A stretch of DNA of 64,000 nucleotides from assembly GCF_000165425.1 (NCBI RefSeq), contig NW_001798956.1, forward strand, positions 511,399 through 575,398, in the 5' to 3' direction. The position numbers and the translations under genes are program-made. Of this stretch, positions 7,349 through 42,400 are shown piece by piece. The DNA comes from Paramecium tetraurelia. Its lineage: Eukaryota; Ciliophora; Oligohymenophorea; Peniculida; Parameciidae. Numbering within the stretch: position 1 is the first letter of the stretch; every line of letters begins with the position of its first letter. The notes beneath the pieces are model-generated. The model was not told the DNA's origin and made no database searches. It saw only the letters and a program-made list of their open reading frames with translations.

Positions 7349-10300
7349 TCATTCTTTGAATTCTTCTGATTTCTACTTTGAAACTTTAGCAGAATTAATA
7401 GCTAAAACAATTACAATATATATATACATAATGTCTTTTAGCCTTACTTATCATAGTCTCGATGTTATTTTGGATCATATGGCCATTTCTCTATAAGTTC
7501 TAATGGATTTTCTAGATAACTTCCTTAACCAAAATTGACTTTCAATCCATAAATTTTACCCTAAATGATAAAATCTATATAATACCCAAAATGAAGGATG
7601 ACCAATGTCATTGATGATATGTAAATAGAATTCATTAGGTATGATATGTTGTACAGAAAGCTCTTTTTTCTTGAGGTCCTTCTGGCAATAAAACGTATGC
7701 CCCCTTGCATGACCTTTTTCGTATCCAAAGTAAACAAATGTCCATTGGTTTTTTATTAATTCAAATGAATGGGAAACTGGTTCAAATAAAGGATCCTTTA
7801 TAGTGTATGTACTGGCCAACAATTCATCAGTTTTTGTAAAAACAGCAAGTGTGCGATCTCCTATGAATTTTTCATCCCCTGCTATATCTTGACTATTAGT
7901 AGTTAATCTCACTAATCCTCTAAAATCATTTTCCATTTCAGGTAATAAAACAGCTGTTTGATACCAAAAACCAAAGCTATATGAATGAACCTAAGACCTA
8001 TCAGCGAATTCATAATTGAGTTTATCCTTTTTAGTATCCATATCCTCCCAATTGGTTGTATCCATCATAGAAACAGGCCATACAAAATCATCAGCTTGTT
8101 GTGGAAAAACAGGTAGTGAGCGATGTAATTTATGTATCATCTCAACTACTTTTTGTGAGTCATTGATGAAGCTACCAGAACCTAAGAAAATCCTTGGATC
8201 AAAATACCAGCCATGAAATGCTTTGTAACCGAATTCACTTGCTCCCAATACAAAATGTGCATATCCAGTCAACACCTAATGGGTGACATCTAAAGTGAGA
8301 TGAGCTGCCTTCTATTGTTCTTTAAACAATATCATTCCATAGAACTATTTATTTTTATATGCAGCATAAACATAGGTCCATTCTCCTTCAATGTTCTCAT
8401 ATGGCAATTAACCATCAACAGCATTTGCTGGTTTAGATGCATCATAAGTACTGAACTCATAATTTCCATAAGTAAGAAATGCTGATAAAACTCTATTTCC
8501 TAATTCACTCTTATCTTAGTATTATCTTTTATTTGAGAACCTAAATATTGTATGCACATCCGATCTGTCAATTAATGTGGTAGGGAATGCAATCAGCCAT
8601 CTTGTCCAGACACCTACAGCATATTCATCAACAGATTCTGTCTCTTCTGTAAAGGTTACTTCTAATTTTTCAGGGGTTTGGATAATGTGACTCTCTTTTT
8701 CAGACCATAGATGTTTTTGATTGATCTGAATGTGTCTAAAGTTAGGTAAATGGTCTTAATATCCTTTCTTTAAAACATCCACAAATGCACCTTATCCATA
8801 TTAAGCAACCCATTTTTAAAGATCACCTTGGAATTTTCTTGAATGTGGATCCTTCCCAACATAAATACCAATGAAATGAGGCACAAAATGCTAGACTCCA
8901 TTAAAAATGACTGGTTTGTCTTCTGCAAATAGATGCAACAATGTGTGAATCTGACCTGCATCTTCATTATAAGCCATATAAATATACGACCAAGCCTTTT
9001 TTGATTCAATAAGTTCAACCTTTTCCTCCAGGAATTTCGCCTCATTCCAATCTTTAAGTCCTTTAAGAGTGTAGGTACTCAATTTAATTGTATCACCTGC
9101 ACATATCTAAGCATGTAATGCTCGATCTCCTTATAATTTACGATCATTCAAATGCTCTTTATCATTATTAGTTATTCTAAACAATATTTAACAATTAGAG
9201 TTTATCTCTCCTTCTTTTTTTACTTAAGTTTCTGAGATCTTAAACCAACCAGATATAGCATATTCACCCACTCCACTCCAAGTGTCTCCAGTGCTTTCAC
9301 TACCTTCATTATTGTCCCCTTCTCCAATCAACTATTATTAACCATGTTTCTGTTTGTGAATGTATTCTACTGTCAATTCTTAAGGCAAGGCAAAACTAGA
9401 GTCAATTGATTTTAATAGTTCTTCGCCGTCATTTATAAATGATCCAACTCCAAAATGAGCAGCTATTTATGTCAATAAACCTTAGAATGGAGATATTTCA
9501 TTTTCTCCTCCTAAAATCAAATTTACATAATCTCCAAGTGGTTTATGCAATAATTTCTCATTTGTAGCATACTTAATCTCCTCACCATTGAAAACAAAAT
9601 AATTCGCTTACTACAACTACCTCTTATAACCAACATAGATGTAGTGCCATTTACCTTCTAGGTTTGAATAGGGTATAGTGCTGATTTCATTTGGAGCATC
9701 ATCATTTAAATCATACGTACCAAATAAATAATTATCTAGAATAACATAAGCACTCAAAACCCTGTCTCCAATTGCAATTCTACCACTATCTCTTTCATCA
9801 TTATATGTGAGTCTGAAAATTTACATCTCTGTTGGAGTATGCCACTATCTCTCTGGCCAAGCTTATAAATATCTTGCCCATAAACCAACTGAGTATTCTT
9901 AAACGCTCTCTATTTATCTGTCTGGTTCAGCAAATGTAATTTTCTATCCCAATTTATCAGGGTCACTTGATACCAATGTTATTGTATCATCTGCTTCCCA
10001 ATCAAATTTACTATCAGAACTAAATAATTTTGGTGCTGCCAAATAAACTGAAAGAGTATGAAAATTGTCTTCTCTATAACTGCCATCCCCTATATTTAAA
10101 ATAACTTAGGCAAGTCTACTATCAAAGGGTTTGATCAAAGCATCCCTTGTTAAAAATAACCAATAGTTAGATGAAACTGCATGCAAAGCAACTTCTAATC
10201 CTTAATGCTCTTCTTCATCAGCCTATAAATAATAACTAACTTTCTCATTATGCTTTGAATATCCAAAGTACACAAAAGTCCATACCTCCAATTACTATGA

Positions 10301-13300
10301 TGGAATCTAAGCTTCATATGAATTTGATAAAGAAAATGGGTTTAAACTGTAAGTACTGAACTCTATGCCATCTGTATGAAATAGAGCCAAAGTCCTATCT
10401 CCTATTTTTTATGCATCTGCTAAGCTGTCAGGATTGGTGGATGTGAATCTATATATCAATTATTGTGTTTTGACTGACTATTTGAACCATCTAAACCACA
10501 ATTAGATGCTGTACTCTCTAGCCTCTTCATTTATATGGGTGATATGGTGTTCTTCTTCGATTGTAGCAACATCATGCTTTCCTATCAAAACTTCATAATT
10601 CTTTGTTGGTGATAGAGTATCTGGAATAGTGTCCTTATTTTTTATCCTTTGTAACAAACCTTATTTCGAGTCAACATAAGATCCAGGTCCCAAATTGAAA
10701 CGAATTGTTGTGATTTGACCATTGAATGTTGAATAATATTTTCCTGCATTACCTATAATTAATTACAAATAATCGTTTAATAATGAATGCATAACATCCA
10801 TCTAAATTCCAGAAGTAATTTATTTAAAATTGGAGAATGCCATTGCATGTCCTTGCGTTTATGAGATACGTTTATAACTGAAATAGAGATAGGTCCATTC
10901 ACTTTCAGATTCAATTTAATAGGGAATATCTCCTGCAACATTATTTGATTTTGTAATGACATCATATGTTGCAAAATGATATGAGGACTTTCCTAATAAA
11001 ATTAAAAGCACTCTGTCTCCTGGGGCATCAAAATCTTTGTAATCTCTATTAGTTGTTAATCTGCTCAATCCCATTAATTGTGGTCTGCTGTAAATTGTAT
11101 TTTTATTTGAGAAGTATTAAAATTTAACCCAATAACCATAACCATATTCACTGACACCATGTAAATGTAATTTATCACTTTGTTCAAATTCAATCTTTAA
11201 GGGAACATCTTTATTTTGGGATGAACACTCTAAGATAGTTTCTTCATTATGCGCTTCTTAACCAGCTTATTATAATTTGATGTGATCTGTTCCACTAATG
11301 AATCCAAAATGAACTTTGATATTTTCATTTTCATCAAAGCCACCTTCTCTAAAAGCGCCGTCTCCAACGTTAATCACCCATGTCTTAATTTAACCTATAA
11401 ATTTGGAGAATTATTGTTTCTCTTAAATTAATACTGAAAACACAGCTAAGTAAAAATGATTTACTTCTTCTTATCTGAATTCACTCTCTGTAAATGTGTA
11501 CTTCAAATACCCATATGTTTTTCTTAATGATTGAGAAAATCCATAATAAATATAAGTCCATTGATCTGCATATTCACCATATTATTCATCATGAGCAGCC
11601 AATTTATACTCTTCTTCATTTTGATTGTAAGTAATGAAAGTAAAGGCTTGATCTCCCCTTGTAATTTGTAAAGTTTCCTCATTTTTGCCATCCAAATCAT
11701 CTATTCTTTTTTAAGCCATAGTAATAAGATGAGCAATTTTTCCGGTTTTTAAAGGCCCATTCCATTTAACCCATCCTGATAATGCATATTCTTCAGCTCC
11801 TTGATACTTTTCGAATTCGAATTAGATTGGTTCTTCTTTAATTTATTGAGGAGCGCCAACTAATTACAATGTTTGTCTTGAAATTGGATGGATATAAGCA
11901 CTTTCTGGAAGAGAATTTTGAGTATATAATTTCAAAATATCAGTTGTTGAAATAAACGACCCTGGTCCAAAGGAGAAAGTAATCCTAGCCATTTCACCAT
12001 TGAATAATGGAGCAGCAGTTTTGCCAATTACGAATTCTACATATTCAAATAAAAAGTCATGATATGTATCAAAGCTGATTTCCTCTACTTCCCCATCAAC
12101 TCCATTTTGAACATATCCCTTGGCTAATCCTTTATCTACATGTCTCTTGTATCCAAAGTAAACATAATGCCAGCGACCTTCCAATACTGTGAATGGAAGT
12201 TCTTCCTTCTCTTCTAAGGTTTAAAATTCGTAAGAATCGGTTGTTAGTGCTATAGACAAAGTTGTATCCTTCGGCGTAGTTGGTCTGTTAGCATTTAATC
12301 TCACAAGTTTTCCATTAACCGAATCAATCACATACCCTTAAGTTCCCAATCTGGCTATATTATGGATTGGAGCTCTTTTATTCAAATATTTGGGCAATGT
12401 GCTCAACCATCTAGTCCACATTCCGAATGCATATTCACTTTATCCATTAATCTTCATGCCTTCATCATTGTGAATTATAATCTTATCAACAACATTTTCA
12501 GCAGAATCATATTGAACATATCTCGCAGAGGTTATGTCTCCACCAACATATGTCACAGGTTTACCCACTTAATAAACTGCCATTACTCCATCTCCATAGT
12601 TGAATGTCATTCCAAAGTCTAGTCCTTCTCTGTATGCTCCAGTTCCCAAATAAATACCAACATATCCAATCTTACCATTAAATGGAGATATCACATCATC
12701 GCCACCAAGAGTAACCATTAAATTATTTACTAATTTATGTTAGATCCCTTTAAATTAAATTTCTCCTACTTGTCCTGGCTTGATAAGAGCACCATATGCT
12801 CTACCACCATCATTATCATAGCCAAAGTATACGTAAGTCCAAATAAACTCTTAACTTTCAACTGTCTTTGATAAATATGATTATCCTTTTGCTTTACTTC
12901 CTTTAATTGTGTAAGTGTTAAAATAAATGGCACATTTTGCTCCTCCTCCGAAAGTATGATGCAATTCTAATGCTCTATCTCCTAAAACTCCTTTTCCTGG
13001 AGCTTTATTCTTGTTTGATCTTAAATTAACTATTTAAAATGTATTAGGTTCATCTACTTTAAGATCATCGATCCATCTAAACCATAATCCGACAGCATAT
13101 TCTTCAATAATTAATTATGATTCTTGTGGATCAAAATGGAATGACTCGCCCTATTCATTTCCATTGAAAGATTTTGGTTTCGTCAATATATTCTCATCAA
13201 TAACTGCAGGAACATTCTAAGGTGGATTACTCAAAGTCTTAAGCACTTCATCTAATGCATCATCCCCATCAATAAATGCTGGAGCATCAATATCATAAAA

Positions 13301-15546
13301 TATATTAGCAAATTAACCATTTAATCCATAATAATTCATGTGTTTACCTCCAAATATCATTTTTATATAAGAAGGAGGAATGTGAGTTGCATCAATTTCA
13401 ACTCTGTAAATTCCATTCCCTTCTCCATAGCTAGCAACATATCCTACAGCCTTTCTTAAAGGACTGCTATACGAGAACATCACAAAATACCACATTCCAT
13501 CCATATTCTCATCTAATACTACAGCCTTATCCTTAGTTTTTACCTTGTCACTTGTATCATAAGTACTGAACACGAATGAATTATCAAATAAAAAAATAGC
13601 TAAGGCTCTATCCCCATAAAATGAAAAATCATCAAATTCCTCATTAATAGTCATTCTTGAAAGGAAATAATACTCTCCCTCTTCTCTAGCATGCTCCTTA
13701 GTGCCATGCTCGCAATATCTCACCCAATATCCAAAACCATATTCAGATGAATCCTATAATAATGCTCTATCATTAAATTCAAACTATTCCGTAGCTTCTC
13801 CATCGAATTAAGAATCCTAATATTTTGTATTTACCGCAACAATTTTTCTTTCTTAAACCCTCCCTATATTAGCTTTATGTTTTGGTGGTTGAAAGGCAGT
13901 TGGTTCATTTACATCAATGTCTTCTCTTAATGATTATATTTTGAATGATCTCTCATCCTCAATTTATTATTATCTTAACTTCTTAGGGTCTTCTGGTTCT
14001 GTTTCTACTTCTTATTGCTTTTTACTACTTTCAGAAGTTTTCTACACTTTTGTAGATTAAATGGAATCAAACTTTTCTTCAACCTCAGTCTCTCCCTCTT
14101 GACTACTGTCAGAGTTTCTCTAAACTTTTGTAGATTAAATTGTATCAACTTTTTCTTCAACTTGAGTTTCTTCTTCTAATGGCTTATCACTACTATCAGA
14201 TGTTCTCTAGACTTTTGTAGATTATATTGAATTAACGTTTTCTTCAACCTGAATATCTCCATCGTCTGATTGATTTTATAATGGCTTATCACTACTATCA
14301 GAGTTTCTCTAGACCTTTGTAGATTAAACTGAGTTAAAATTTTCTTCAACATGAATTTCCTCTTCTTCTGATTGATTTTTTACTTCTAGTGGCTTATTAC
14401 TATTTTCAAAGGTTCTCTACACTTTTGAGGATTAAATTGAATTAAATTTTTCTTCAACTTAGGTTTCTCCTTCTCCTTAATTATTATTATCATTTGAAAT
14501 AATGTCATCGGACGAATGATATTCTTAATTATCTAAATCTTCGACTTTGAAAACTTTTACTGCTTATACGACATTTTCAGTTTCAGTTTCGGTTTTTTAA
14601 GACTCGGAATTTTAATTTTCATGATTATTCAAGTTATCCTCATCAGAATTCTTAACTTTTCCATCAATCTCATGCCCCAAAGCTATATATCTTTTGTTTC
14701 CTTTAGTTTCCTATTTTATATCATTAGACACATCCTTATTTAGTTGATCCTTTTATTTTTCCCGAATCAAATGATATGTTTCATGATCAATGTCATCAAT
14801 TAATGATTCTAAATCCTCTTCTTCAAAATAATAATATATTGTTTCTCCTGGCATTTCATCATAGTAAATAATGTCCTCTTCCGAATCAGGTTCATCTTCA
14901 AAAATTCTTCTTACCTTTTTGATGTCCTATTAGCAGAATCTCCTTAACGTTTTAAGTTATGTAACTTTTTATCTCAAATTTACAGTTCTCTGAACGTATT
15001 AACACTGATTCAAATATTGATATATTTGCTCCTAAGTCTATCTCAAATGAGCAATAATTTAATTTGCCAATTATATTTTCTCCTCATTTGCTACTATATA
15101 TTTTCATTATACTTTATGTAGCATTCAATTAGCCAACATATTCAAGAGCATCTTCAACTCTGCAGGCCGCCCACTTATTTTGAATAAAAATATTCTAAAG
15201 AGACTATTCAATTTTTTATTTTATTTCCACCAACATAGTTTAATGAATTACAGACATTGTCCCTTTCGCTTTCTCAACTATATTTATGATTGTATTGATT
15301 ATCGCTAAATCTTTTATCAATTATTCTCGATTATCAATAATATCTATCCATCTCTCTAATTCAGCAATGATGAAATCGAAATTAGCATGGCAACTCAAGC
15401 GAGAAACATCTATATTATATGCTTCATTGTAAGTCAGCCCTATCTAATTGTGCAAAAATACCTCGAGTTCGGAGCTCTGATGCTTCTAATTTCGAAGAAA
15501 TGGCTACAACGATCAATAGAATGAAAGTTATAAAGGTTTTCTTCAT
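7349..15546 (-). CDS. giant secreted protein: signal peptide, coiled coil, acidic repeats, ~10 LamG/ConA-like repeats
   Basis: Start ATG 15546 opens a clear signal peptide (MKKTFITFILLIVVAISS). Resolved introns are 15440-15461, 15094-15112 (only 19 nt), 7561-7585 and 7402-7427; others are likely. A helical region follows, then a long acidic segment containing five degenerate repeats of the type VEEKFDSIQSTKVQ..SDSS (about 14.03-14.48 kb). About ten copies of a ~210-residue beta-rich repeat follow, each with a GDRALAIFL-like core strand, W.YVYFGY, and FGPGS motifs. These are typical of concanavalin-A/LamG-like jelly-roll domains. The W..YFGY strand recurs near 7.73, 8.36, 8.98, 9.62, 10.26, 10.88, 11.54, 12.15, 12.82 and 13.47 kb. 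Stop is TGA 7349-7351. Total is roughly 2,690 residues, probably a surface or granule-content protein; the function is inferred. Confidence 0.8.
7600..13760 (-). repeat. ten tandem ~640-nt repeats encoding LamG/ConA-like domains
   Basis: Within the giant secreted gene a codon pattern meaning W-x-Y-V/I-Y-F-G-Y recurs about every 610-670 nt, ten times. It is flanked by a GDR(A/T)LAVF strand and an N-terminal FG(P/A)GSF motif. The copies are strongly diverged at nucleotide level, so the array is old, unlike the blocks at 22-28 kb. Confidence 0.75.
14030..14480 (-). repeat. five degenerate acidic repeats (STKVQ / SDSS motif)
   Basis: The motif SIQSTKVQR(N/T)SDSS recurs five times on the minus strand at spacings of roughly 67-105 nt, separated by Glu-rich linkers. 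It forms the disordered acidic stalk between the coiled coil and the LamG-like repeats of the secreted giant. The high Ser/Thr/Glu content suggests phosphorylation or calcium binding, which is inference. Confidence 0.75.
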
Positions 15547-18366: not shown

Positions 18367-21300
18367 TCAATCCCAAATGAAGTTATTTAAAATTTAAAGA
18401 TTCTTATTTATTGAAATAATGTAGAAATTGATATTAATGTAAAAAATATTAATCACTTTTTTGATTTTTGAGAGTATGATCCCATTTTTTTAAATTATTA
18501 TGATATAATTTCTTTTTTTTAGGCAGCTAATTAATTGCTTGAATTTTAAATAGAACTTTATGATGCATTTTAACTTTAATTAACCTGAATTATTTAATAA
18601 TATTTACTGAAGGAACTTCTTATTATCTATTACTCTTTTGAGTGCTTTAGCTAGTGTTTTAACCACTTTTTTTTTTATCATCGCTTTGGTAGGAAAATTT
18701 TTGTTAAGCAGCACTAATTATTATTTTTATTTTTACTATTTCTATTAGGGTTAAGGACTAACTACAGTTTTGATGGTTGAGCTACGGGAATTCGATCCCC
18801 TAACTAATTATTAAGATTGAGGAAGTGAAGAAATAATAATGGAAGTAGATGGAGCTTATGTAGCTCTAACTGGTTAACCAGATTTGATTTAATTTTAAGA
18901 TAATTGTTATTGTTCTTTTTATGGAGTACTAGTGAATGAGTTTCTAAAATTGAGTTATTTTGGTAATATTTATGATTGAGATTTAACTAATGTCCTTGAT
19001 CCTTTTTCGTCAGGACTTAATTCTATAGGCTCAGCTTGTTGACCTTATTCTGGAATATGTTCCATTGCTTGAATTTTATTCTCAGTGAGCATTTAATTAT
19101 ATTTTATGATGTCATCCTCATTGAATTCTATGAAGGTTTTTAGCCTATGTTCATTGAGAGAAGCTAATCCACACCTCGTTCCAAATTTTTTTATTAATCG
19201 AATTGCCTTTGAGAATCTCTCATATTATTAACTAGTAAATATATATATTTTTTACTTTATATAGCAAAGTTCATCAAACCCTATTTTAGCATTAACTAAA
19301 ATCATTTTTTAAAGAAGTCTTTTTATGATTTTAATGCCCACAACGAAGTTAGAACTCATATTGTAATCTTAGTCTGAGAAAGGACTGGATGAACTTCTAT
19401 TGTTTTTGTCAGAACCAACCCTATTTCGCAGGATATCTTATTGGGATTATTTTTTACTATGATCCTTTCTTTCCAATTACTTTAAAAACATTTTATCTGT
19501 TTCAGATATATCAGAAATATTTGTTCTATTAATTATTGCTTGATCATCCATAAATTATTCATGTAATTATTGTTAAGCTTTATTTGTTCCTTGATTTTTA
19601 TTATATTATTCGTTAACATTCATTAAAGATTTAGATTTAGTTATTTATGTTTACTCTATAGCTTAAATTAGTGATAGTTATGAGGAGCTTGATTTACTTT
19701 TCTTAAGATTTGGTTCTTAATATTTTGGGATTTTTAATTAAACATTTGGGTTATCATTTGATTATATTATTTTTACATAATTTCCTTCTCTATTTTTACT
19801 AAAATCACAATTTTTATAAAATGCCAAAGATCGATTAGAGACTTTAATTCTACGAACTAAAGTTTGATCTTAGCCGAGCTGTTCCTTCAAATCTTCTCCA
19901 AAGAGTAATTCTTCGTCTTTATAGTTTTTTCTTGTAATTATTATTTTTTATTTGTTACCTTTTCCTTCTTTTACTACCTCCTCAATCATTTAGAAAGATT
20001 CATTCTTGCTTAAAATTCTTTGCCAAATGTTGCTGCTCTTTTCACACCAACCTTTTTTCATTAAATCTGATGGGGAATTTGACTCAGCAAGTTGTCTACT
20101 TAAAATTATAATATCCTCTTCCTACTCATATAAATCATCTCCAATCTCTGGATCTTATTTTGCTTCATTTGTTTTTCTTTGTAAGCGACGCTCTACCTTT
20201 TTTGTTTAAGGATTCAATATCAAAATTTCTTCCTCTATAGCCTTTAATTATTGTTGCTTTCTTTTTTCACTAGAACTAGCAAGAAACTTATCTGTTCTGG
20301 ATCCATCAAAATCCGGAACCCTTATACCTTAGCTATTCAACTCTTCATTAGATCGATATTATGAGTCTCTTTACTCCTAGCTGTCCTCATCAATTTAATA
20401 CATTTATCTCTTTATATTTATGTTTGCATGCTATTTAAAATATTCCTTTGGAGCATCAGTAACCTTTTTCCAACTTTATAAACTATCTATCTAAAATTAA
20501 TTTATAACCTTTCTTTATCTGATAATAAAACCATTAGGTTATTTTTCATTTAAGTTTTTTCCAATCTATACTTCTGTAATGTTAACCTATTTTTAAATAG
20601 CAAACAATTCTGTTTAACCTGATTTTTAATTTGCTACTTCCACAATTTCTTCTACAAATTAGTATGGGTTATAATCTAAATCAAGATTAGTAACAATCCT
20701 TCGACTTATTATTTGATTACCATCAGAATCCTATTCTTTTAACCTTTTTCCAATTTATCTATTTACATTGTAAGGAAACTTTAATTAAATTATTTCCATT
20801 TCATTAGTCTTAGGATTTAATATTTAATGTTCTTCTTCAAAATATTAAGAATCTTAATTAATTAATTATTTGGATAATGCTGAATTGCCAGTAGATTAAT
20901 CTCCAACTTTTTTTAGGATTCCTTAATCATCTTTAACCCATCCTTCTTATTTAAGAGCAGTTAAGGTTTAGTTATTTTAAATAACTTTTCTTGATAAAAC
21001 AAAACCTCCATCAGTTCTATTAATTTTGCTTTCACCATTTATAAAGGGTCTTCTTTCAACAATTAGCTTTTATTATCCATCCTTGTCAGTTAAAAGCACT
21101 TCTTCTTCTATATACTACTCTGGCTCCTATACTGATAGTTACTTCACTAAAGTTCCATTTTTTTATTTAATCCATCCTGTAGTAGAATTATTGTCAACTA
21201 TTTTTCTTGACAAAATTGTATTTCCTAAAGGATCTACTTCTTATATTGAGTCTCCCATAACAAGATTGTCTTAGATTTACCTTCTTAGAAATTTTCTTTC

Positions 21301-24300
21301 TAGTTAACCTGTTTCCTTATTAAAACTTAAAATTTCTTCTTCAATATATTTGGAAGGCTCAGATGAAGCTATCACTTTTTCCATCAATCCTTCTTTGTTA
21401 GTTATCCATCCTTCTTTTTTTTTTGTTTCTGAAGAGATATTGTTTGAAACAATTTTTCTAGAAACTACTCTATAGCCTTATTATTATTCATCTATTTCAT
21501 CACCAAATTAGGTTTTGTTATCCTCGATATAGGGTTTTCTTATTAACTTTCTCTCTTGTTTCCCAGTATTTTAGTTGACAATTAAAATTTCCTCTTCAAT
21601 GAATTATTTTGGTTCAGAAAGGCTTACTAATCTAGTAAGCCTGCCTTATTCAAACTTCCATCCTTCTTTTTATTATTATTTAATTGAAGATATATTATCA
21701 ATTATTTTTCTTGATAAAATTTATTTCCCTTCCTTATCGATTTCAGTTAGATTGTCTCCAGTTTTTAAATTTTATGAATTTGGTGACAATGGCCTTCTTA
21801 TCAATGTTCTTTCAAGTTGTTAAGTTTATGGATTCATGACTAAAATTTCTTCTTCAATATATTTAGTTGGTTCTGTTTCACATATTATTTACTCTAAATT
21901 TCCATCTTTTTTCTGTTGCCATCCTTATTAGTTTAAATCATCAGATGAAAATTAATTTTATATAATCCTTCTAGAAATAACTCTTTCACCATCCTTTCCT
22001 TACTCATTTAAACAATCTCCATAATTAACTTATTCGTTAATTTAATATACTGGTTTCCTTACTAATTTACGCTCTTGTTTGCCTGTTTTTGGATTGATTA
22101 TTATTACTTCTTCTTCAACAGAATTATTCAGGTTCCTCTTATGAAATAATTTTTTCAAGAGTACCATTTTATCCTTTTTGCCAATCTATTTGGACTTAAC
22201 TAATAGATTAAGAATTATCGACTATTTTCCTCGATAAAATTCTATTTCCATCTTTATCAACTTCATTTAAATTATTCCCCATTTATGAATTTTCTTTTGT
22301 CAAAGGTCTCCTTACTAATTTTCTCTGTAATCCATTTTCTCCATAACAAAGTACTTCTTCTTCGACATATCTTGTTGGTTCACTTTATGCTAGTTATATT
22401 TCCATTTGACCTTATTTTTGTTACCAATCTTTCATTTAATCCAAAGATTATTCATTTGAAATTATCCTTCTTGCAACTACTTTTCTATTACCATCACCTT
22501 CTTATAGGTTTTCTCCTATTTCGCCAATGTCTGATTGAGTCAAAGGTCTTCGGATTAATTTCCTTTCTTATTTCTAAGTTTTGGGATTTATTATGATAAT
22601 CTCTTCTTCTATATATGCTTCAGGTTCTTACTATGAAACTACCTTTTCTAAATAACCATTATTCGACTAAACCCAGGTTGAGTCCATTACTTTATTATTT
22701 TATACAATCTTTCTTGAGACAACTTTATTTCCATTTTAGTCTTTCTCTATAACTGCTCCAGTTTATAATTTGTTATCTTAAGGTAAGTAAGGTCTTCTTA
22801 CTAGTTTTCTTTATACATTTCCATCTTCGCCTTAAACTAATATTTCTTCTTCCACATATTTTACAGGTTCAGATTAAAATCTAATTTCCATATTTCCATC
22901 ACTATTTTTAACCCAACCTTGCTATTTCAAAGCCTGATTTGATTAATCATTTTAGACAATTTTTCTTGAAATTATTTATTTACCATTTCCTAAATTTTCT
23001 TCTAAATTCTACCCAAATTACAAAATATCTAGTTCTTCGTTATTCAGTGGTTTTCTGATAATTTTTCTCTCTAATTTTCCTGTCTTTGGGTTGATTTGAA
23101 TGATTTCCTCCTCGATAAATTATTCTGGTTCTTCAGAATTTAAAATGATCTCTTCTTATTTCCCAACATTCTACCATTATTGTTTGTTTGCTTTAGGTTA
23201 AAGATTAGACTCTATTTTACGTGAAAGCACTTTATTTCCATTCTTATCCACTTCATTTAACTAATCGCCTTCTTGAATCTTTCCTCCCAAATAAGGCTTT
23301 CTCACTAATTTTCTTTCCATCATTCCTGTTTTATTGTTAAATTATAAAACTTCTTCAGTAATATATTGAGAAGGTTCAACTCCTAAAGATTATTCGTAAT
23401 TTCCATCATTATTTTTTCTCCAGTTCGAAGAAGCTAGAGACAAATCGTTATCAACTATCTTTCTAGAAACTACATAACAACCATCACCTAAATCCTCCAA
23501 AAGTTCTTCTCCTTCTTATATATTCCCATCATCGTCCAAAGGTCTTCGTATAATTTTCCTTTCCTACTTTCCTCCTTATCTCATAATAATAACTTCTTCT
23601 TCAATAAATTAAGTTGGTTCTTAAATGGATAAGGTTTTCTCAAAATACCCTTAATTGTTTTTCCATCCTTCCTTCTCAGCTTACTATGTTGAAGTCGTAT
23701 TTTCAATAACTCTTCTTGCAAGAATCTTATTTCCATTTTAATCAGTTTCTTATATATTATTTCCCACATTCTAACCAGGTTAATACTATTTTCTGACTAA
23801 TTTTCTTTCCATGTTTCCAGTTTCTTCATTCATTACTAAAACTTCCTCCTCAATAAATTTAGCTGGTTCATTTTGAACTATGAGTTTTTCTAACTATCCG
23901 GTTTTTTAATTTTTCTTCCATTCACTTAAAGAGGTGTCATTTTAAACAATTCTACGAGACACTACCTTTTGGTTATTGCCTATTGATTCATTTAATTAAT
24001 CTCCAATTTCTTCTTCATTTTCATAAGGTCTTCTAACTAATTTACGCTCTTGTTTGCCTGTTTTTGGATTGATTATTATTATTTCTTCTTCAACAAATTG
24101 TTCAGGTTCCTCTTATGAAATAATTTTTTCAAGAGTACCATTTTATCCTTTTTGCCAATCTTTTTGGATTTAACTAATAGATTAAGAATTATCGACTATT
24201 TTCCTAGATAAAATTCTATTTCCATCTTTATCAACTTCATTTAAATTATTCCCCATTTATGAATTTTCTTTTGTCAAAGGTCTCCTTACTAATTTTCTCT

Positions 24301-27300
24301 GTAATCCATTTTCTCCATAACAAAGTACTTCTTCTTCGACATATCTTGTTGGTTCACTTTATGCTAGTTATATTTCCATTTGTCCTTATTTTTGTTACCA
24401 ATCTTTCATTTAATCCAAAGATTATTCATTTGAAATTATCCTTCTTGCAACTACTTTTCTATTAGCATCACCTTCTTGTAAATTTTCTCCTATTTCGCCA
24501 ATGTCTGATTGAGTCAAAGGTCTTCTGATTAATTTCCTTTCTTATTTCTAAGTTTTGGGATTTATATATGATAATCTCTTCTTCAATATATGCTTCAGGT
24601 TCTTACTATGAAACTACCTTTTCTAAATAACCATTATTCGATTAAACCCAGGTTGAGTCCATTACTTTATTATTTTATACAATCTTTCTTGAGACAACTT
24701 TATTTCCATTTTAGTCTTTCTCTATAACTGCTCCAGTTTATAATTTGTTATCTTAAGGTAAGTAAGGTCTTCTTACTAGTTTTCTTTATACATTTCCATC
24801 TTCGCCTTAAACTAATATTTCTTCTTCCACATATTTTACAGGTTCAGGTTAAAATCTAATTTCCATATTTCCATCACTATTTTTAACCCAACCTTGCTAT
24901 TTCAAAGCCTGATTTGATTAATCATTTTAGACAATTTTTCTTGAAATTATTTATTTACCATTTCCTAAATTTTCTTCTAAATTCTACCCAAATTACAAAT
25001 TATCTAGTTCTTCGTTATTCAGTGGTTTTCTGATAATTTTTCTCTCTAATTTTCCTGTCTTTGGGTTGATTTGAATGATTTCTTCCTCGATAAATTATTC
25101 TGGTTCTTCAGAATTTAAAATGATCTCTTCTTATTTCCCAACATTCTACCATTATTGTTTGTTTGCTTTAGGTTAAAGATTAGACTCTATTTTACGTGAA
25201 AGCACTTTATTTCCATTCTTATCCACTTCATTTAACTAATCGCCTTCTTGAATCTTTCCTCCCAAATAAGGCTTTCTCACTAATTTTCTTTCCATCATTC
25301 CTGTTTTATTGTTAAATTATAAAACTTCTTCAGTAATATATTGAGAAGGTTCAACTCCTAAAGATTATTCGTAATTTCCATCATTATTTTTTCTCCAGTT
25401 CGAAGAAGCTAGAGACAAATCGTTATCAACTATCTTTCTAGAAACTACATAACAACCATCACCTAAATCCTCCAAAAGTTCTTCTCCTTCTTATATATTC
25501 CCATCATCGTCCAAAGGTCTTCTTATAATTTTCCTTTCCTACTTTCCTCCTTATCTCATGATAATAACTTCTTCTTCAATAAATTAAGTTGGTTCTTAAA
25601 TGGATAAGGTTTTCTCAAAATATCCTTAATTGTTTTTCCATCCTTCCTTCTCAGCTTACTATGTTGAAGTTGTATTTTCAATAACTCTTCTTGCAAGAAT
25701 CTTATTTCCATTTTAATCAGTTTCTTATATATTATTTCCTACATTCTAACCAGGTTAATACTATTTTCTGACTAATTTTCTTTCCATGTTTCCAGTTTCT
25801 TCATTCATTACTAAAACTTCCTCCTCAATAAATTTAGCTGGTTCATTTTGAACTATGAGTTTTTCTAACTATCCGGTTTTTTAATTTTTCTTCCATTCAC
25901 TTAAAGAGGTGTCATTTTAAACAATTCGACGAGACACTACCTTTTAGTTATTGCCTATTGATTCATTTAATTAATCTCCAATTTCTTCTTCATTTTCATA
26001 AGGTCGTCTAACTAATTTACGTTCTTGTTTGCCTGTTTTTGGATTGATTATTATTACTTCTTCTTCAACAAATTGTTCAGGTTCCTCTTAAGAAATAATT
26101 TTTTCAAGAGTACCATTTTATCTTTTTTGCCAATCTTTTTGGATTTAACTAATAGATTAAGAATTATCGACTATTTTCCTAGATAAAATTCTATTTCCAT
26201 CTTTATCAACTTCATTTAAATTATTCCCCATTTATGAATTTTCTTTTGTCAAAGTTCTCCTTACTAATTTTCTCTGTAATCCATTTTCTCCATAACAAAG
26301 TACTTCTTCTTCGACATATCTTGTTGGTTCACTTTATGCTAGTTATATTTCCATTTGACCTTATTTTTGTTACCAATCTTTCATTTAATCCAAAGATTAT
26401 TCATTTGAAATTATCCTTCTTGCAACTACTTTTCTATTAGCATCACCTTCTTGTAAATTTTCTCCTATTTCGCCAATGTCTGATTGAGTCAAAGGTCTTC
26501 TGATTAATTTCCTTTCTTATTTCTAAGTTTTGGGATTTATTATGATAATCTCTTCTTCAATATATGCTTCAGGTTCTTACTATGAAACTACCTTTTCTAA
26601 ATAACCATTATTCGATTAAACCCAGGTTGAGTCCATTACTTTATTATTTTATACAATCTTTCTTGAGACAACTTTATTTCCATTTTAGTCTTTCTCTATA
26701 ACTGCTCCAGTTTATAATTTGTTATCTTAAGGTAAGTAAGGTCTTCTTACTAGTTTTCTTTATACATTTCCATCTTCACCTTAAACTAATATTTCTTCTT
26801 CCACATATTTTACAGGTTCAGGTTAAAATCTAATTTCCATATTTCCATCACTATTTTTAACCCAACCTTGCTATTTCAAAGCCTGATTTGATTAATCATT
26901 TTAGACAATTTTTCTTGAAATTATTTATTTACCATTTCCTAAATTTTCTTCTAAATTCTACCCAAATTACAAATTATCTAGTTCTTCGTTATTCAGTGGT
27001 TTTCTGATAATTTTTCTCTCTAATTTTCCTGTCTTTGGGTTGATTTGAATGATTTCCTCCTCGATAAATTATTCTGGTTCTTCAGAATTTAAAATGATCT
27101 CTTCTTATTTCCCAACATTCTACCATTATTGTTTGGTTGCTTTAGGTTAAAGATTGGACTCTATTTTACGTGAAAGTACTTTATTTCCATTCTTATCCAC
27201 ATCATTTAACTAATCGCCTTCTTGAATCTTTCCTCCCAAATAAGGCTTTCTCACTAATTTTCTTTCCATCATTCCTGTTTTATTGTTAAATTATAAAACT

Positions 27301-30300
27301 TCTTCAGTAATATATTGAGAAGGTTCAACTCCTAAAGATTATTCGTAATTTCCATCATTATTTTTTCTCCAGTTCGAAGAAGCTAGAGACAAATCGTTAT
27401 CAACTATCTTTCTAGAAACTACATAACAACCATCACCTAAATCCTCCAAAAGTTCTTCTCCTTCTTATATATTCCCATCATCGTCCAAAGGTCTTCGTAT
27501 AATTTTCCTTTCCTACTTTCCTCCTTATCATCGATAATAATAACTTCTTCTTCAATAAATTAAGTTGGTTCTTAAATGGATAAGGTTTTCTCAAAATATC
27601 CTTAATTGTTTTTCCATCCTTCCTTCTCAGCTTACTATGTTGAAGTCGTATTTTCAATAACTCTTCTTGCAAGAATCTTATTTCCATTTTAATCAGTTTC
27701 TTATATATTATTTCCCACATTCTAACCAGGTTAATACTATTTTCTGACTAATTTTCTTTCAATCTTTCCTGTTTCTTCATTCATTACTAAAACTTCCTCC
27801 TCAATAAATTTAGCTGGTTCATTTTGAACTATGAGTTTTTCTAACTATCCGGTTTTTTTTAATTTTTCTTCCATTCACTTAAAGAGGTGTCATTTTAAAC
27901 TATTCGACGAGACACTACCTTTTAGTTATTGCCTATTGATTCATTTAATTAATCTCCAATTTCTTCTTCATTTTCATAAGGTCGTCTAACTAATTTACGC
28001 TCTTGTTTGCCTGTTTTTGGATTGATTATTATTACTTCTTCTTCAACAAATTGTTCAGGTTCTTCTTATGAAATAATTTTTTCATACATTGTACCATTTT
28101 TTTTCCAATTTTATAAAGAAAACCTACTATCTATAATTTTCCTTGACAATACATAGTTGCCATTGTTATCTTTTTCTCTTAAATTATTCCCAACCTTTCC
28201 CTTGCATTATTCAATTGGCCTTCTTACCAATTTTCTAATCATATTTCCATTTTTACCCTTTATTAGTACTTCCTCTTCTACATATTATGTTGACTCTGCT
28301 TAAGAAATTTATAATTCATAATTGCCCTCTGGATTCTTCTGCCATTCTTTACCTTATTACCTTTTTTCATTCTTTTCTATAATTCTTCTTGCAACTACTT
28401 TTACACCAAGATTGCTATCTTCATCCAATTCTTCACTTATCTCTTGCAATTAATCATCAAAGAATGGCCTTCTAACTAATTTTCTCTCCTACTTTTTTGT
28501 TACCTAATTATAAATTATGATCTCCTCTTCTACAAATTAATCTGGCTCTGATTCTGATAATTTTTTTTATAAAAATCCTTCTTAGGTCAATAACCATCCG
28601 TCCTGTAACATTATTTTTTAAGATGGAGAATTATCTAATATTTTTCTAGAAAGTACTTTTACTCCTTTCTAGCTATACTCTTTATCCAGCTCTTTGGCTT
28701 TTTCTTTTTCTATGTATGGTTTTCGTATTAAAATTTTTTCTAATTTGCCAGTATCCTTATTAAGTCTTAATATTTCTTCTTGTACAAATTTTCCTAGAGT
28801 TTCACTTTAATCTTTGTTTACCTCTACCTGCTTTTATATACTTTAAAATGGATCATTTTTTTCTCTGGTTTTTTAACTGCATTCCATTTGATGAATTTAT
28901 AATTATTCAATACCAAGATTTCTTTCCAGCCTTTGCATGTTTTAAAAGGACCAGCCATCTGCTTTCATTTGAGTTAGAGATTCATTGTTCTCAACAAGTC
29001 TTCTGCTTTCAACAATATCGCCATTCTATTATTCTTCATTAATGCCTTCCCCCATGGTAAGAATTTCTGGTGTTTTTCTTATTTATTTTCGTAAAATGCA
29101 ATTTCCCTAAAAAATCTTTATGTCTTCTTCTAAATATTAAATAGGTTCGTTTACAGAAATAATTTTTTTATATTTATTGTTACTTGTTAGTTCCCAGCTT
29201 TAATCAATTATCCCATTAATAACTCGACTTGCAATTAAAATTTAATCTTTGCCTCTTACTGTATATAAATTTTCATCATTTACATATGTTGAGGAGTCCA
29301 AAATGATTACTTCTCTTATTAAAACTCTATCCTACTTCTGTCTATTTCTAAATAAAATTTCTTCTTCAAAGAATTTTGTAGTTTCATCAAACTTTTATAT
29401 TGCTGGAGAATTTAGGATAGGAGAGGCATTCAATATATTTTTAGAGTATTTTTTTTGTCCTACTATTCTGCTTTAACCATAATTGATTTCTTTATCTTGA
29501 GTTCCAGTTTCTCCAACTGATAAATCATCGGCAATGCTTTATCTTCTTTTAGAAATTGCATCCTCAAATACTTCCTCTGATTAATTCGATTATCGTTTTA
29601 AACCTTCTAGTTAAGATCTAACTGTCTCCACTTATTTATTAAGTTCTTAATCATATCTTCTTTCTTTATGAATAAATTCTTAAATTTTTTCTTTTTCTTA
29701 ACTATTAGCTCTGGGGTTTATCTCCTTTATCATTTATTTTATGTCCTATGCAGAGTTGCTTCTATTTGAGTATACTCTTTCCCTAAATTCAAATGCAATT
29801 TACGGGTAGTTGTACATAGAATTGATAGTAATTTGAATGTCCTAGATTAAAAGTCTCATCAAATTTGCTTTTTTAACAGGGGATTTTGTTCTACTTTCAG
29901 AATAGTTTACAAAAGAACGGGCTAAAGGTTGCTGCATATTTGGAGTACGAGATAAATATGATTTTGGGAGAACTGCAGATTGCTTTAAGGGTGTCATTGC
30001 TGATTTATGAGATTTTAAAACTATTGGCTAAGGAGAATAATATATTCTAGATTTTTATAAGGGTATTGCAATTTTATTTGGAGTGTGATTTATTTAATGA
30101 TTAATAATCGAGAGTTTTAATTAAGTCTCTTATTAATGTACTTCAGATATTGAGTATTATTATTAATAAACTTGAATTGAACTTGATATTCCTTTTTTTT
30201 ATGTCCCATCAAGAAAACGTGACTTATCAACAACAAAGCCTTAAATTGAGTTTAATGTAAATTTTAAAATATTTTGAGGTAAAATAGCAGAATGCATAGC

Positions 30301-31270
30301 TTTTTCTGCATTATCATATCGTATTTATTCATAAAGAGCCTTCATTTCGATTTACTCATTTTAATAAAGATTTGCTTTATCTATTTTTATAAATTGTTAT
30401 AATTCTGTTAAACAAAATAAGTGTGTATCATTTTAAGTAACATTATGAATTTTTAATCGAATATCCAGCTTTTTAATTAATAGTTCACTTAATACCAATA
30501 GATATATTTCATTTTTATCTAAATAATTAGGTTAATTATATACTTGTGAGCAAAAATGAATATTGATCGTTAGGCAAAATTTCAGAAATAACTAGGTGTT
30601 CATTTGTAAATTATCTGAATTTTTAAAGCACCCATTTCTAATTGCTATAAAAACTTTATTTAAAAGAATCCGATAGTAAAAATATGTTTGAAGATCCTAA
30701 ATTTTAAGTACATTGTAAAAAATACCATCAATAAGTAAAATGTAATCCCTTCCAGCGCAAATTTTATTAATTTTTATCTATAAGCTGTTTACAATTTATG
30801 GTATTTCTGAATTTCCAATTGGTGTTTGTCCCCATGTCCACAATTTTCCTGAATAATCTAGACCGCATGCAAGATGAGTGGAAAGAGACACCTATTTAAA
30901 ATCTGTAGCAATTCTACTAGGAATAGGTAAAAAGTATATCTTTGAAATTCCAAGAGTGCCATAATGATTCTTATCGTCTCCAAAAGAATACACCTACCCA
31001 GAATATGAAAGTGCTAATGTCACATTTTTGTTTGTTGTGATGTACTTAATTTTTTCATTCTTGAATGGTAGTTAATAAAAGGAAAGCTCATAGCTGATAT
31101 AATATAGGCACCCTGTTTCAGAAAGTATCTAAAATGAATTTAAGGAAAACCCTTTACAAATTTATCTCACCTTACCGAACTATCCTAACACATTGAATGG
31201 TTTATAAGTATTCTAATTTTTAAAGAAAGCTTACCTGCTCATCATCATAGATATACAATATATCATTCAT
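18367..31270 (-). CDS. giant RCC1-headed repeat protein (~38 units of 82 aa; frame broken in the amplified core)
   Basis: Start ATG 31270 (MNDILYIYDDEQ), intron 31213-31234, then an RCC1-type propeller head (YSGQVYSFGDDKNHYGTLG, ACGLDYSGKLWTWGQTPIG). A helical part (about 30.1-30.7 kb) and a Ser/Pro-rich linker with two or three coiled coils (EKEKIQEFIHKERRYDQEL) follow. Then come ~38 repeats of about 82 residues with consensus EP..YVEEEIL...TGK.ERKLVR(R/K)P, GN.VLSRKIV.N and W....G.LEK. The C-terminal section (18.8-20.0 kb) is disordered and Ser/Lys/Asn-rich. An intron at 18714-18736 is likely; without it the frame ends at TGA 18678. Four one- or two-base indels inside the three tandem blocks break the frame, although their sum (+6) is a multiple of three. 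Length would be about 4,200-4,300 residues. No known function for the repeat. Confidence 0.75.
22071..24045 (-). repeat. macro-repeat copy 1 (1,975 bp; eight 82-aa units)
   Basis: First of three head-to-tail, nearly identical blocks; sites 1,975 bp apart match base for base with only scattered substitutions. It differs from the other copies by an extra base near 22118 that changes the frame. It encodes eight units of about 247 nt each. Confidence 0.9.
24046..26020 (-). repeat. macro-repeat copy 2 (1,975 bp)
   Basis: Second tandem block. By eye it differs from copy 1 at roughly one site per hundred. An extra base near 24568 (a TATATA stretch where the other copies read TATTA) shifts its frame. 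Confidence 0.9.
26021..27998 (-). repeat. macro-repeat copy 3 (1,978 bp)
   Basis: Third tandem block. It carries two extra T residues in a homopolymer near 27852-27859 and a two-base difference near 27530, relative to copies 1 and 2. Downstream in plus coordinates a ~70-bp fragment of the unit start continues to about 28070 before sequence becomes unit-specific, marking the edge of the amplification. Confidence 0.9.
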
Positions 31271-36381: not shown

Positions 36382-37604
36382 ATGGGCTCGTGTTGTGCAA
36401 ATACTACATAAGAAAAAGAATCTTTTACTGCTATTCCAGCTCCAATCTAAATAAGCAATGAAAATTTAGAAGTTAAAGAAACAACAAAAATAAAGGAGTC
36501 TAATGAAACTCCAAGTTCACCCATAAGATCAGAAAAAATCGATGTATAAATTGAAATTAAAATATAGCACAGGAAGAGAATTATGGAAGCATTAAGAGTT
36601 ATCGAGGAGTGTTGATTGAAAACACTAATGTATATATGCATTCTTTTAATAGTATAGATATTTGATGAACAATCCTCGCTTGCTCTGACTATATATAATT
36701 CTTTAGGTATTTATGTTAAAAAAATAAAGGTCCATTTCCATTTCCAATAATTAAAGATCAGACTCTTACTTATGCTGGTCCAGTTCAAATTGATGCAGGG
36801 TATTTCTAAAATAGATATTAGATCAATTTATCAGGGATAATGGTTAGATGGAAAAAGACATGGATTTGGAAAATACTTACATCCTTATGGATCAATTTAT
36901 GAAGGGGAATGGTATAACGATTAATAGTAAGGATATGGGAGAATTGTGCTTCCTAACGGGGATTAGTAAAATAATCAGTGTATAAAATAAGTTATGAAGG
37001 CTAATGGAAGAACGATAAGGCATGGGGAACCGGAAAATATGTTACGATAGATGGAACTACATATAATGGGGAATGGGTGGATGATAAATAACATGGAGTA
37101 AATAATGATATTCATAATGAGAAAGGAGTAGAAGAATGGAAAAATGGCTAAAGGTATGAGGGAGACTATTTAAATGGCTAAAAAACTGGATATGGCCTAT
37201 TTTTTTGGCCTGATGGTTCCAAATATGAAGGAGGTTTGCTTGATGGAATGCCTCATGGAGATGGTGAATACACATGGAAAGATGGAAAAAAGGTATATTG
37301 AGTATTCAAATTAGTATAAAGGGGAGTGGATGTTTAATCAAATGCATGGTTATGGAATTTATATTTGGCCTGATGGAAAAATATACAAAGGAAATGTAAT
37401 TTAAGGTTGCTACTATTTTAGTTTGAAAAAGATTAAAGAGAAGGAAATGGGGAATTGGATTGGTCGGATGGTAGAGTTTATAAAGGCAACTGGAAAAATG
37501 GTAAATAACATGGAGAAGGAGAATTTATTTATAAAAATAAAATCCGAAAAGGAGTTTGGTAAAATGGGCAGCCAGTAAAATGGAGTCATAGTGAATTATT
37601 ATGA
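36382..37604 (+). CDS. MORN-repeat protein with acylation-type N-terminus (348 aa)
   Basis: Start ATG 36382, stop TGA 37602-37604. Seven introns (36544-36572, 36630-36657, 36707-36729, 36800-36821, 36966-36991, 37293-37314, 37396-37421) leave exactly 349 codons. The N-terminus MGSCCANTTQE has Gly2 and two cysteines, as in dually myristoylated and palmitoylated proteins. After a ~90-residue variable part come about eight MORN repeats, e.g. YQGQWLDGKRHGFGKY, YEGEWYNDQQQGYGR and YKGNWKNGKQHGEGEF. MORN arrays bind membranes or scaffold complexes; in ciliates they are common at the cortex and in radial-spoke proteins. The acyl anchor suggests plasma or alveolar membrane localisation (inference). 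Confidence 0.9.
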
Positions 37605-37713
37605 ATATAATGAATACTATAATATTTTAATGTATTCTTTCTCAATGTACGAGAAATTGCAAGTTTTTGAAGAATATTTTGATGAGATATATATATGATT
37701 ACTAATGTATATT

Positions 37714-38906
37714 TCATAATGTTCCAATATATACATTAACGTTGTAATTCAATTATTGTTAATCCATGGGCATTTTGATTTTAGCTGAGACAGAAAATGC
37801 AAACTGTATTTTTGTGGCATCCTTAATAATTAAAATGGCTTCAAACTTTTAATATTGTTAAACATCGCTTTCTATGTTGTCATTATTGAATGTAAAGTTG
37901 GGTGAGGGTAGATTCTTCACTGTTAATAATTTATATTATTCCAATATCTACTAATCAAGAGGTTAAAAGGAGTATTCCATGGCATTTTTAGTTTTATTAA
38001 ACATTTAAATCACTACTGACAATTCTGTTTTCTCCTTGTTCACATAAGATACTTTACCCACTTACAAATAAGGGGCATGATCATAGTGTAAGTTTTAAAC
38101 ACTATAAGCAAACTTTTTTGAGTTTTTTTCTGGCTGTAATGTAAAAATTAATTTTTAACATTTTCTGCATTTTCTATTTTTTCTGCTTAACAATCCTAAA
38201 GGTATCGGCAATAAAGTTGAAGATTATTATGATGGATTAAAGTCTTACAATTCGACTTATTTGTTATTTAAGTCTAAGTTATACCTTTATAGAACAACCT
38301 TTAGGTTTTTTTCTTTAGTCATCTTATCTATGTCTGCATTACTATAGTGAATTAAAGCTTCACTTTTTGTCCATGATTATGTTAATGATTTTAAGACATG
38401 TTTATTTTTTTATTGTTTCTTGATTAGGAAATTATTATTCTCTATACTTTTAATACGATTATATTGATCTTAGAAGTCCTTATACTCAGCTTCATATTCT
38501 TGTTTATAAGCATTATTAATTTTTGTGTAAACCTATTGAAAATTAGGATCAGTGACTCCAATTGTTCTGGTTGTATAAAAACAATATGAACAAGTGAATC
38601 CATAATTCTTCTCAGTGTCTATTTGTCTACGCAATACATTTTTGCAAACAGGACATTCAAAACAAGAACTACAATTAACAGTCAGATTGGATGTTTCGCT
38701 TGTAATTTGAACATCTCCACAATTTCTACAATAATAGCAAAATATTTCATTTGATGTACAATATCTACACATACTGTTTTGGCATCTAAGATGAACAAAT
38801 AATAATACGATAGACAACAATACATTTCCTCTTATAGAAACTCCCTTCCACATTCACATTGAATTAGAATTAGGGGTAATTTGGCTATCTTTTTGAATTA
38901 AAACAT
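37714..38906 (-). CDS. DCTN4: dynactin subunit p62 (DCTN4 family, 389 aa)
   Basis: ATG 38906, one 23-nt intron 38786-38808, stop TGA 37714-37716, 390 codons. The N-terminus carries the cysteine-rich zinc motifs of p62: QCECGREF, CQNSMCRYCTSNEIFCYYCRN (shown only in part), CFECPVCKN and FTCSYCFYTTRTIGVTDPNF. A second zinc pair, SRKNRKCRKCQKLIF, lies near residue 230, as in DCTN4. Beta-rich sequence follows to the end (YNVNVYIGTL). p62 sits on the pointed end of the Arp1 filament of dynactin and helps recruit dynein cargo. The assignment rests on cysteine spacing and the TIGVTD-type segment. Confidence 0.8.
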
Positions 38907-41669: not shown

Positions 41670-42355
41670 TCATTTTTAGATTTCTTTCTCTTTTCCTTAT
41701 TTTACAACTTTTTAATCCTACTTATCTTTATTTTCATCCTTATTTTATTCATCCTTTGTTGCCACCTCATCAATCAATTTTTAGACTTTCATTATAGGTT
41801 TTTTGGTCACTACCGTAATTTGGAATGTTGTATAATCTTGTAATTCTGGACTGTAAAAGTTTTCTATTTATAATGTGAATTATCCATAAGTAGTAATTTT
41901 GTTAACCATAGACAACATATGATTTTTTGTGATCTATTGTAAATATGCATAATACTTGCAATTTGAACCTTTATTGAACTTCCTCGATAATTAATTTGTC
42001 ATCTATTGGGTCTTTAAGAAGACTTGGATTCGAAAATTTAGGAGGCCTAACAAATTCTAAATGGATTCCTGCAATTTTTTGTTAAAACAACTTGATATCC
42101 TTTCTTCTCTAGATTTTATTTTCTAACTTCTCTTCATCAAGATCGGGTAATAATCTATGATTGAAAATTGAATTCAAAGTACCTTCTTCTATATCCTGGC
42201 AGATTCTAATATGCCATGGCCATTGGAAAGAGATATTTCTCAAAAAATCCAGGTTTTACAATGCGTATTTCTCCTTAAAATCCTTGTACGCAATCTTTTA
42301 AAAAAAATATTTCCATTCTCTATTTTGAGAAGAAGTATTGTAAACCTCTTTTCAT
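41670..42355 (-). CDS. mitochondrial large-subunit ribosomal protein bL9m (211 aa)
   Basis: ATG 42355, introns 42155-42182 and 41934-41955, stop TGA 41670-41672, 212 codons. After a short basic presequence (MKRGLQYFFSKQR) comes the bL9 signature. MEIFFLKDCVQGFQGEIRI corresponds to bacterial MEVILLKDV.GLG..GD, and VKPGFFEKYLFPMAMA corresponds to V..GYARNFLIP..LA. A helix (EEKLENKIQRRKDIKLF) and the C-terminal globular part follow, then a Lys/Asp/Gln-rich extension. bL9 binds 23S rRNA near the L1 stalk; here it would act in the mitoribosome. Confidence 0.75.
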
Positions 42356-42400
42356 TAAATTTAATTACAGTATATTATTTATTGGATATTAATTTAAATT

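Follow-up and report, generated by a model that had tools for sequence, protein, structure and literature searches.

A giant RCC1-headed gene of Paramecium tetraurelia with a long array of an unnamed, predicted β-sheet repeat

We analysed a 64,000-nucleotide stretch of Paramecium tetraurelia DNA (contig NW_001798956.1, positions 511,399 to 575,398; hereafter the window), whose minus strand carries a giant gene with a predicted product of ~4,230 residues. From the N-terminus, a divergent RCC1-like head is followed by a linker of ~300 residues, an array of 38 units with ~82 residues each and a final tail. The repeat unit is, as far as sequence comparison goes, real, conserved between duplicates of the gene and unnamed in the libraries searched (Pfam, NCBIfam and PDB sequences). 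We propose, with a probability of about 0.55, that this is a working gene for a long cytosolic, titin-like rod or tether docked by its head. We infer the cytosolic location, the docking by the head, the rod geometry and the mechanical function; tethering is the most economical reading of the protein rather than a proven one.

Read with the code in which TAA and TAG specify Gln (table 6), the window holds 62 open reading frames (ORFs) of at least 200 amino acids (aa), against no closed ORF of at least 150 aa with three stop codons (table 11). A unit profile of 84 positions, built from the units of a paralogue on contig C149, matches 38 of 944 six-frame window segments (≥40 aa) at E < 0.001, all on the minus strand and within the array, which bears out the count of about 38 copies of an 82-residue repeat made in the initial annotation. 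The same profile has no match elsewhere in the window and none in 180 shuffled sequences; one extra unit match in the window array is marginal (E = 0.13). The C149 array gives 48 units and one marginal, partly by construction, since the profile derives from C149. The unit consensus reads EPxxYIEEEILxxNxxTGxxERKLIRRP...GxxLxExxxxGxxVxSRxIVxNxxS...W...GxxEKxI. Six positions (E8, E9, R22, R26, R52 and W64) are conserved in at least 90% of the 66 rows of our unit alignment, A1, which combines 24 of the 38 window units with 42 of the 48 from C149. Omitted from it are near-identical block copies, units straddling a frame switch and some diverged units of the window, together with one short unit, one across the locus border and the four diverged last units of C149.

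The C149 units alternate in two types, A and B. Measured in that array (42 of the 48 units, distances 1–24), mean pairwise identity is 0.41–0.44 at even distances and 0.37–0.38 at odd ones, a difference reached by none of 5,000 label shuffles. The greatest differences between the types are at unit columns 32, 47 and 58 and, near the first hairpin turn, at 16, 19 and 20. By analogy the window array probably alternates as well; its near-identical blocks comprise eight units, and the phase of an alternation would therefore be kept from block to block.

Library searches agree with the initial annotation, which recognised no named family in the repeat: there is no convincing match in Pfam, NCBIfam or PDB sequences. 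When the 66 single units were compared with Pfam (E ≤ 0.1), 23 families were returned, each matched by at most two units; the best match of one unit, to ArsC (E = 0.00093), was judged to be chance. Longer pieces, namely four of the five window frame pieces and the C149 frame in two parts, revealed nothing above the Pfam threshold outside the head. The strongest of these long-piece matches, DUF1214 (E = 0.00012), scores 23 bits against a cut-off of 25 and was rejected, as were DUF6651 (21.6 versus 27 bits) and DpaA_N (20.8 versus 29.2 bits). Vault_2, the major vault protein repeat, reaches 17.3 bits against 23.6 in one of four pieces, is absent among the single-unit families and was likewise rejected. 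We also rejected an NCBIfam match to a cytochrome b6f iron-sulfur subunit (E = 4.6e-7, yet scoring 29 bits where the cut-off is 250) and the sole PDB-sequence match of the A1 unit profile, a viral membrane protein (E = 0.24). With phmmer, a single piece from the window and the longer of the two C149 parts each gave a best E of 0.12 against the PDB. Relatives of the unit numbered zero in two viral-contig scans and one prokaryotic-contig scan, which could reach close relatives only, and no description of this repeat was found in the titles and passages of open-licence literature consulted.

Fold prediction, which the initial annotation had suggested as a check for one and two units, returned confident, mostly β models in two paralogues. 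AlphaFold2 gave three window units a predicted local distance difference test score (pLDDT) of 90.2 and a predicted template-modelling score (pTM) of 0.77, using an alignment of 48 rows, of which 37 (out of 39) come from C149 and 11 (out of 18 possible) from the window; four C149 units (23 alignment rows) reached a pLDDT of 90.1 and a pTM of 0.74. In both models the unit is predicted to form a long hairpin, a third strand and a loop that holds the Trp, to which some units add a short helix; its fourth strand then passes almost directly, via a Glu-Pro kink, to the first strand of the next unit. The main strands follow the same order in the two paralogues, and the few helices are 4–6 residues each. 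A pTM of 0.74–0.77 over three to four units suggests a defined orientation between units, although it falls short of proof; at a guessed 3–4 nm per unit, the array might extend some 115–150 nm. Foldseek searches of the PDB gave 680 and 945 matches (E ≤ 10), none of which reaches E ≤ 0.001, and the best 50 of each were inspected. The top matches (ciliary doublet entries, GFP and avidin) were set aside as meaningless, with template-modelling scores of about 0.1 and a root-mean-square deviation of about 20–40. A structure search of BFVD returned 468 matches (E ≤ 10), again none at E ≤ 0.001.

The head carries the RCC1-type segment that had been noted before. In spliced form it scores above the Pfam cut-offs for PF00415 (26.9 bits; cut-off 21.7) and PF13540 (27.1 bits; cut-off 22), compared with 21.4 and 23.5 bits unspliced; the rise for PF00415 is due to splicing. 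As to a complete seven-bladed propeller, the best stretch of the head is residues 63–182, and WD40_RLD attains E = 4.5e-12 on the spliced head, yet 46 bits against a cut-off of 150. The best PDB match of the head, RPGR, improves from E = 1.8e-5 to 1.3e-8 on splicing, a gain explained in part by the shorter query. The head hints at docking without pointing to a docking site, as RCC1 is common in this genome. Another RCC1-like protein of Paramecium, Nd6p, reportedly acts in exocytosis; the likeness is that of ciliate RCC1-like domains.

Across the genome searched (69.07 Mb in 231 contigs), units occur at three loci only: the contig of the window (C3), C149, and C84 plus C188, with at least 96 matches. 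A head query has six genome matches, one in C3, one in C84, two in C149 and weak ones in C25 (E = 8.8e-5) and C216 (E = 6.9e-4). RCC1 repeats lie at the matches in these last two contigs, where the unit was not found. A tail query matches C3, C188 and C149 only. The simplest reading joins the end of C188 to the start of C84 as one locus carrying the duplicate of the window gene, because the flanking neighbours match there: the upstream neighbour matches C84:19536-20673, and the downstream neighbour has its best non-self match at C188:426645-427040 (50% over 127 residues), with weaker ones in C69, C177 and C149. The two contig ends (434853 in C188 and 1 in C84) look adjacent on one chromosome, broken inside the array of the duplicate.

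The C149 frame is open for 4,658 codons: it begins in the last part of the head, crosses the linker and the complete array of 48 units and reaches into the tail. We compared the window gene with the C84/C188 duplicate by the Nei–Gojobori method; with synonymous divergence (dS) of 0.5–1.3, near saturation in places, the ratio of non-synonymous to synonymous divergence (dN/dS) is 0.116 for the head exon, 0.115 for the linker, 0.157 for the first units, 0.076 for the block units, 0.089 and 0.068 for the last units and beyond, and 0.067 for the tail. Values of 0.067–0.157 in seven stretches spanning head, linker, array and tail indicate, at the level of sequence, a working gene under purifying selection. 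Comparisons of blocks within genes give 0.127 and 0.275, on few changes.

In the arrangement that we propose, the RCC1-like head would dock on a partner at one site, with the linker of ~300 residues next; the 38 β-sheet units would be stacked end to end, probably as alternating A/B pairs, and the conserved C-terminal region would bind at the opposite end. In the cell cortex the protein could then act as a strut, as a spacer or as an elastic tether, its reach set by the number of units. The initial annotation had proposed a long structural or tethering protein, perhaps cytoskeletal, with an unrecognised repeat; this is supported in part, by the lack of a convincing relative of the repeat in the libraries searched, the confident β models and purifying selection, while a cytoskeletal or tethering role stays inferred. 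As in titin and other giant tandem β-domain proteins, a long chain of β-sheet domains would suit a filament or spring. Titin, however, uses Ig and FnIII domains, whereas neither is among the Pfam matches here, no Foldseek match in the PDB reaches E ≤ 0.001, and the unit has ~82 residues, four main strands and A/B alternation. By analogy, an alveolate cortical anchor with an RCC1 head is already known in TgRCC1-2 of Toxoplasma: according to excerpts of a preprint (PMC12918799), it is a 215-kDa protein with N-terminal RCC1 repeats and two coiled coils, and its depletion disrupts the anchoring of cortical microtubules. It shares with the giant gene N-terminal RCC1 repeats on a large protein with a long non-RCC1 part; a β-repeat array such as that of the gene described here is not mentioned in the excerpts (PMC12918799, preprint).

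Several observations weigh against a rod or tether encoded by a working gene. The window copy, as assembled, is not a single open frame. Constraint is uneven, because the first units, which share 68% identity with the duplicate, are the fastest stretch measured, and the comparison between two C84 blocks yields the dN/dS of 0.275 on few changes. The models rest on the protein's own repeats and one paralogue (48 and 23 rows), and both the rod geometry and the length are guesses. Of the head, the recognised portion is ~120 of ~300 residues; RCC1 is moreover widespread in the genome (127 PF00415 matches among 150 scored of 197 candidates) and has many roles, and for this reason the head leaves the function unfixed.

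A more far-reaching version of the rod or tether we hold to be rather doubtful: the units would represent a new β-repeat superfamily, forming a continuous β-ribbon rod with a two-unit A/B repeat. Such a rod would be the titin of ciliates, built on a new fold; unequal exchange of eight-unit blocks would tune its length, and it would bridge a set distance from the RCC1-docked site to a second cortical site. Ciliate cortices keep precise spacings over long distances, and apart from helical centrin scaffolds few long rulers or springs have been described there. A giant β-rod that is conserved and has an anchor-like head would be a direct candidate for such a ruler or spring, and can be tagged in Paramecium. 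The unnamed repeat domain has a confident model for which Foldseek gives no solved counterpart at E ≤ 0.001; with eight-unit blocks under homogenisation, the length of the gene may vary between strains.

The alternative that survives best, although we find it unlikely, is a scaffold for calcium-driven contraction, in which each unit or A/B pair would bind a protein resembling centrin or spasmin and a rise in calcium would shorten the array, in the manner of the giant scaffolds of ciliate contractile fibres. Trp often anchors partners of this kind, and one Trp per unit is conserved in at least 90% of the 66 rows. Sfi1-type sites, however, are single long helices, and the repeats of such scaffolds are short and helical, whereas the units here are ~82 residues long and modelled as mostly β, with no helix over six residues; centrin-scaffold families are also absent among the Pfam matches. 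Excerpts of PMC12661445 and PMC5483020 describe ciliate giant scaffolds for centrin and spasmin that have many binding repeats, the latter including the Sfi1-type centrin-binding scaffold of the infraciliary lattice, which, like the array, is built of repeats and belongs to a cell of this kind.

Quite unlikely, too, is a membrane-skeleton protein of the epiplastin, alveolin or epiplasmin type that has unusually regular repeats and forms part of the epiplasm. The head, medial and tail plan, long β strands in the medial region, charged strands and an alveolate host fit such a protein, as the excerpts of PMC6212826 portray it, but composition does not. The medial domains of epiplastins average 25% V, 0.4% G and 2% L (same excerpts), against 7.3% V, 6.0% G and 7.6% L in the C149 array and 6.5% V and 6.7% G in the window array pieces (2,222 residues). 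Acid–base dyads are depleted rather than enriched (3.3 and 3.6 per 100 residues versus 5.6 and 5.1 expected given the composition), and the inner-membrane-complex family (IMCp) is absent among the Pfam matches. Epiplastins are expected to consist of β strand and coil with no helix; the models here are mostly β and include a few helices of 4–6 residues. Compared with the epiplastins (alveolins, articulins and epiplasmins) of the excerpted account (PMC6212826), the giant gene has a true ~82-residue repeat with Gly, Asn and Trp.

We consider it very improbable that the gene encodes an extracellular or surface adhesive rod similar to the rope-like surface proteins of bacteria. The resemblance would be one of outline: tandem β units with continuity from unit to unit. 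Against it, the N-terminus (MNDILYIYDDEQ...) is unlike a signal peptide, judged by eye, no Foldseek match in the PDB reaches E ≤ 0.001, and RCC1 folds are as a rule cytosolic or nuclear.

Part of the array is made of near-identical blocks, 1,969–1,975 bp apart, between about 28.05 and 22.1 kb. Divergence at synonymous sites is low within each gene (dS 0.027 between two window blocks over 250 codons; 0.078 between two C84 blocks over 158 codons), against 0.63 between C84 and window block units (318 codons); the blocks have therefore been homogenised within each gene. As the blocks are almost identical, the number of units may vary among strains, or the assembly may miscount it. The window array had been taken for one frame; we find four small frame switches in it (Table 1). 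In C84, too, the matching units show repeated changes of frame, and the gene there is cut off by the contig end, while the C149 frame has no switches. The switches are probably assembly errors. Programmed frameshifting was dropped as an explanation because the switches are confined to the homogenised blocks or their edge and C149 has none, and retention of sequences that Paramecium eliminates was dropped because the three measured length differences are just one or two bases. More improbable still than an adhesive rod is a decaying pseudogene or assembly artefact that yields no functional giant protein, as four switches in the window and several in C84 might be taken to imply: those of the window lie in or at the edge of near-identical blocks, the hardest to assemble, C149 stays open for its 4,658 codons, and dN/dS is low within the blocks as well as to either side of the switches.

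The start proposed earlier, an ATG at 31270, is a good one, as the N-terminus MNDILYIYDDEQ is encoded likewise at C84 and resembles MDEIIYFYDEEE at C149. The lower limit, first set at 18367, moves to a predicted stop ending at 18453; the C-terminus (...QFKKMGS...) is similar to that of C149 (...QFKRMGS...). Five GT...AG introns of 22–29 nucleotides (nt) are predicted in the window gene; the head has three of them, the tail the other two, and candidates of similar length occupy matching places in the C84/C188 duplicate. The raw head ORF looks unbroken but holds a wrong stretch of ~70 residues, because introns 2 and 3 total 54 nt. The RCC1 part had been said to continue in frame into the array: the C149 frame supports this continuity, whereas the raw ORFs of the window cross five predicted introns. 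A split into one gene for the head and another for the array, the case named in the initial annotation as one that would overturn it, is hardly credible. Frame changes inside the head in the raw ORFs hint at such a split, but are explained by the 22–29-nt candidate introns, whose positions agree between the window gene and the C84 duplicate, and a single C149 frame spans the end of the head, the linker and 48 units and runs into the tail. The short candidate introns, the ciliate code and the duplicated syntenic block are consistent with Paramecium, where, in the excerpted text of PMC11334263, >95% of introns are 20–34 nt and whole-genome duplications mark the ancestry of the aurelia species.

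Table 1. Positions of the giant gene and its predicted parts in the window
Feature	Position	Strand	Remarks
Whole predicted gene	18453..31270	-	ATG at 31270, TGA ending at 18453
RCC1-like head, ~300 residues spliced	30300..31270	-	lower boundary approximate; residues 63-182 recognised, rest divergent
Predicted intron 1	31213..31234	-	22 nt, GTA...TAG; 22-nt candidate at same place in C84
Predicted intron 2	30697..30725	-	29 nt; 29-nt counterpart in C84
Predicted intron 3	30519..30543	-	25 nt; 26-nt counterpart in C84
Linker, ~300 residues	29386..30300	-	rich in Q, I, S and K; dN/dS 0.115 against C84
Repeat array, 38 units of ~82 residues, few spacers	19756..29385	-	profile matches, unit alignment A1
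Homogenised zone, blocks of ~1,975 bp (8 units each)	22100..28050	-	two full and two partial blocks; boundaries approximate
Frame switches 1 and 2	near 27860 and 27532 (27530..27862)	-	each a two-base length difference from other blocks
Three-unit stretch for fold prediction	25353..26084	-	mostly β, pLDDT 90.2, pTM 0.77
Frame switch 3	24566..24567	-	one-base length difference
Frame switch 4	22115..22140 (near 22130)	-	at edge of homogenised zone
C-terminal tail after last counted unit	18453..19755	-	carries predicted introns 4 and 5
Predicted introns 4 and 5	18736-18714, 18607-18585	-	23 nt each; 24- and 25-nt candidates in C188

Elsewhere in the window, a 2,531-codon open frame (table 6) occupies 7475-15070 on the minus strand and has no Pfam match at E ≤ 0.001. 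Inside it, at 14173-14474, a 102-bp tandem repeat encodes an acidic repeat of ~34 residues, and the part at 13720-14622 has partial matches in C188, C69, C177 and C149. Upstream of the giant gene lie genes for a MORN-repeat protein (36616-37698, plus strand) and a dynactin p62-like protein (37714-38853, minus strand), the latter closely matched by a second copy within the duplicated block of C84. More ordinary neighbours are a fatty-acid desaturase with cytochrome b5 (42338-43942, plus strand), a DHHC palmitoyltransferase (45627-47135, plus strand) and a Sec23/Sec24-like protein (5197-6582, minus strand).

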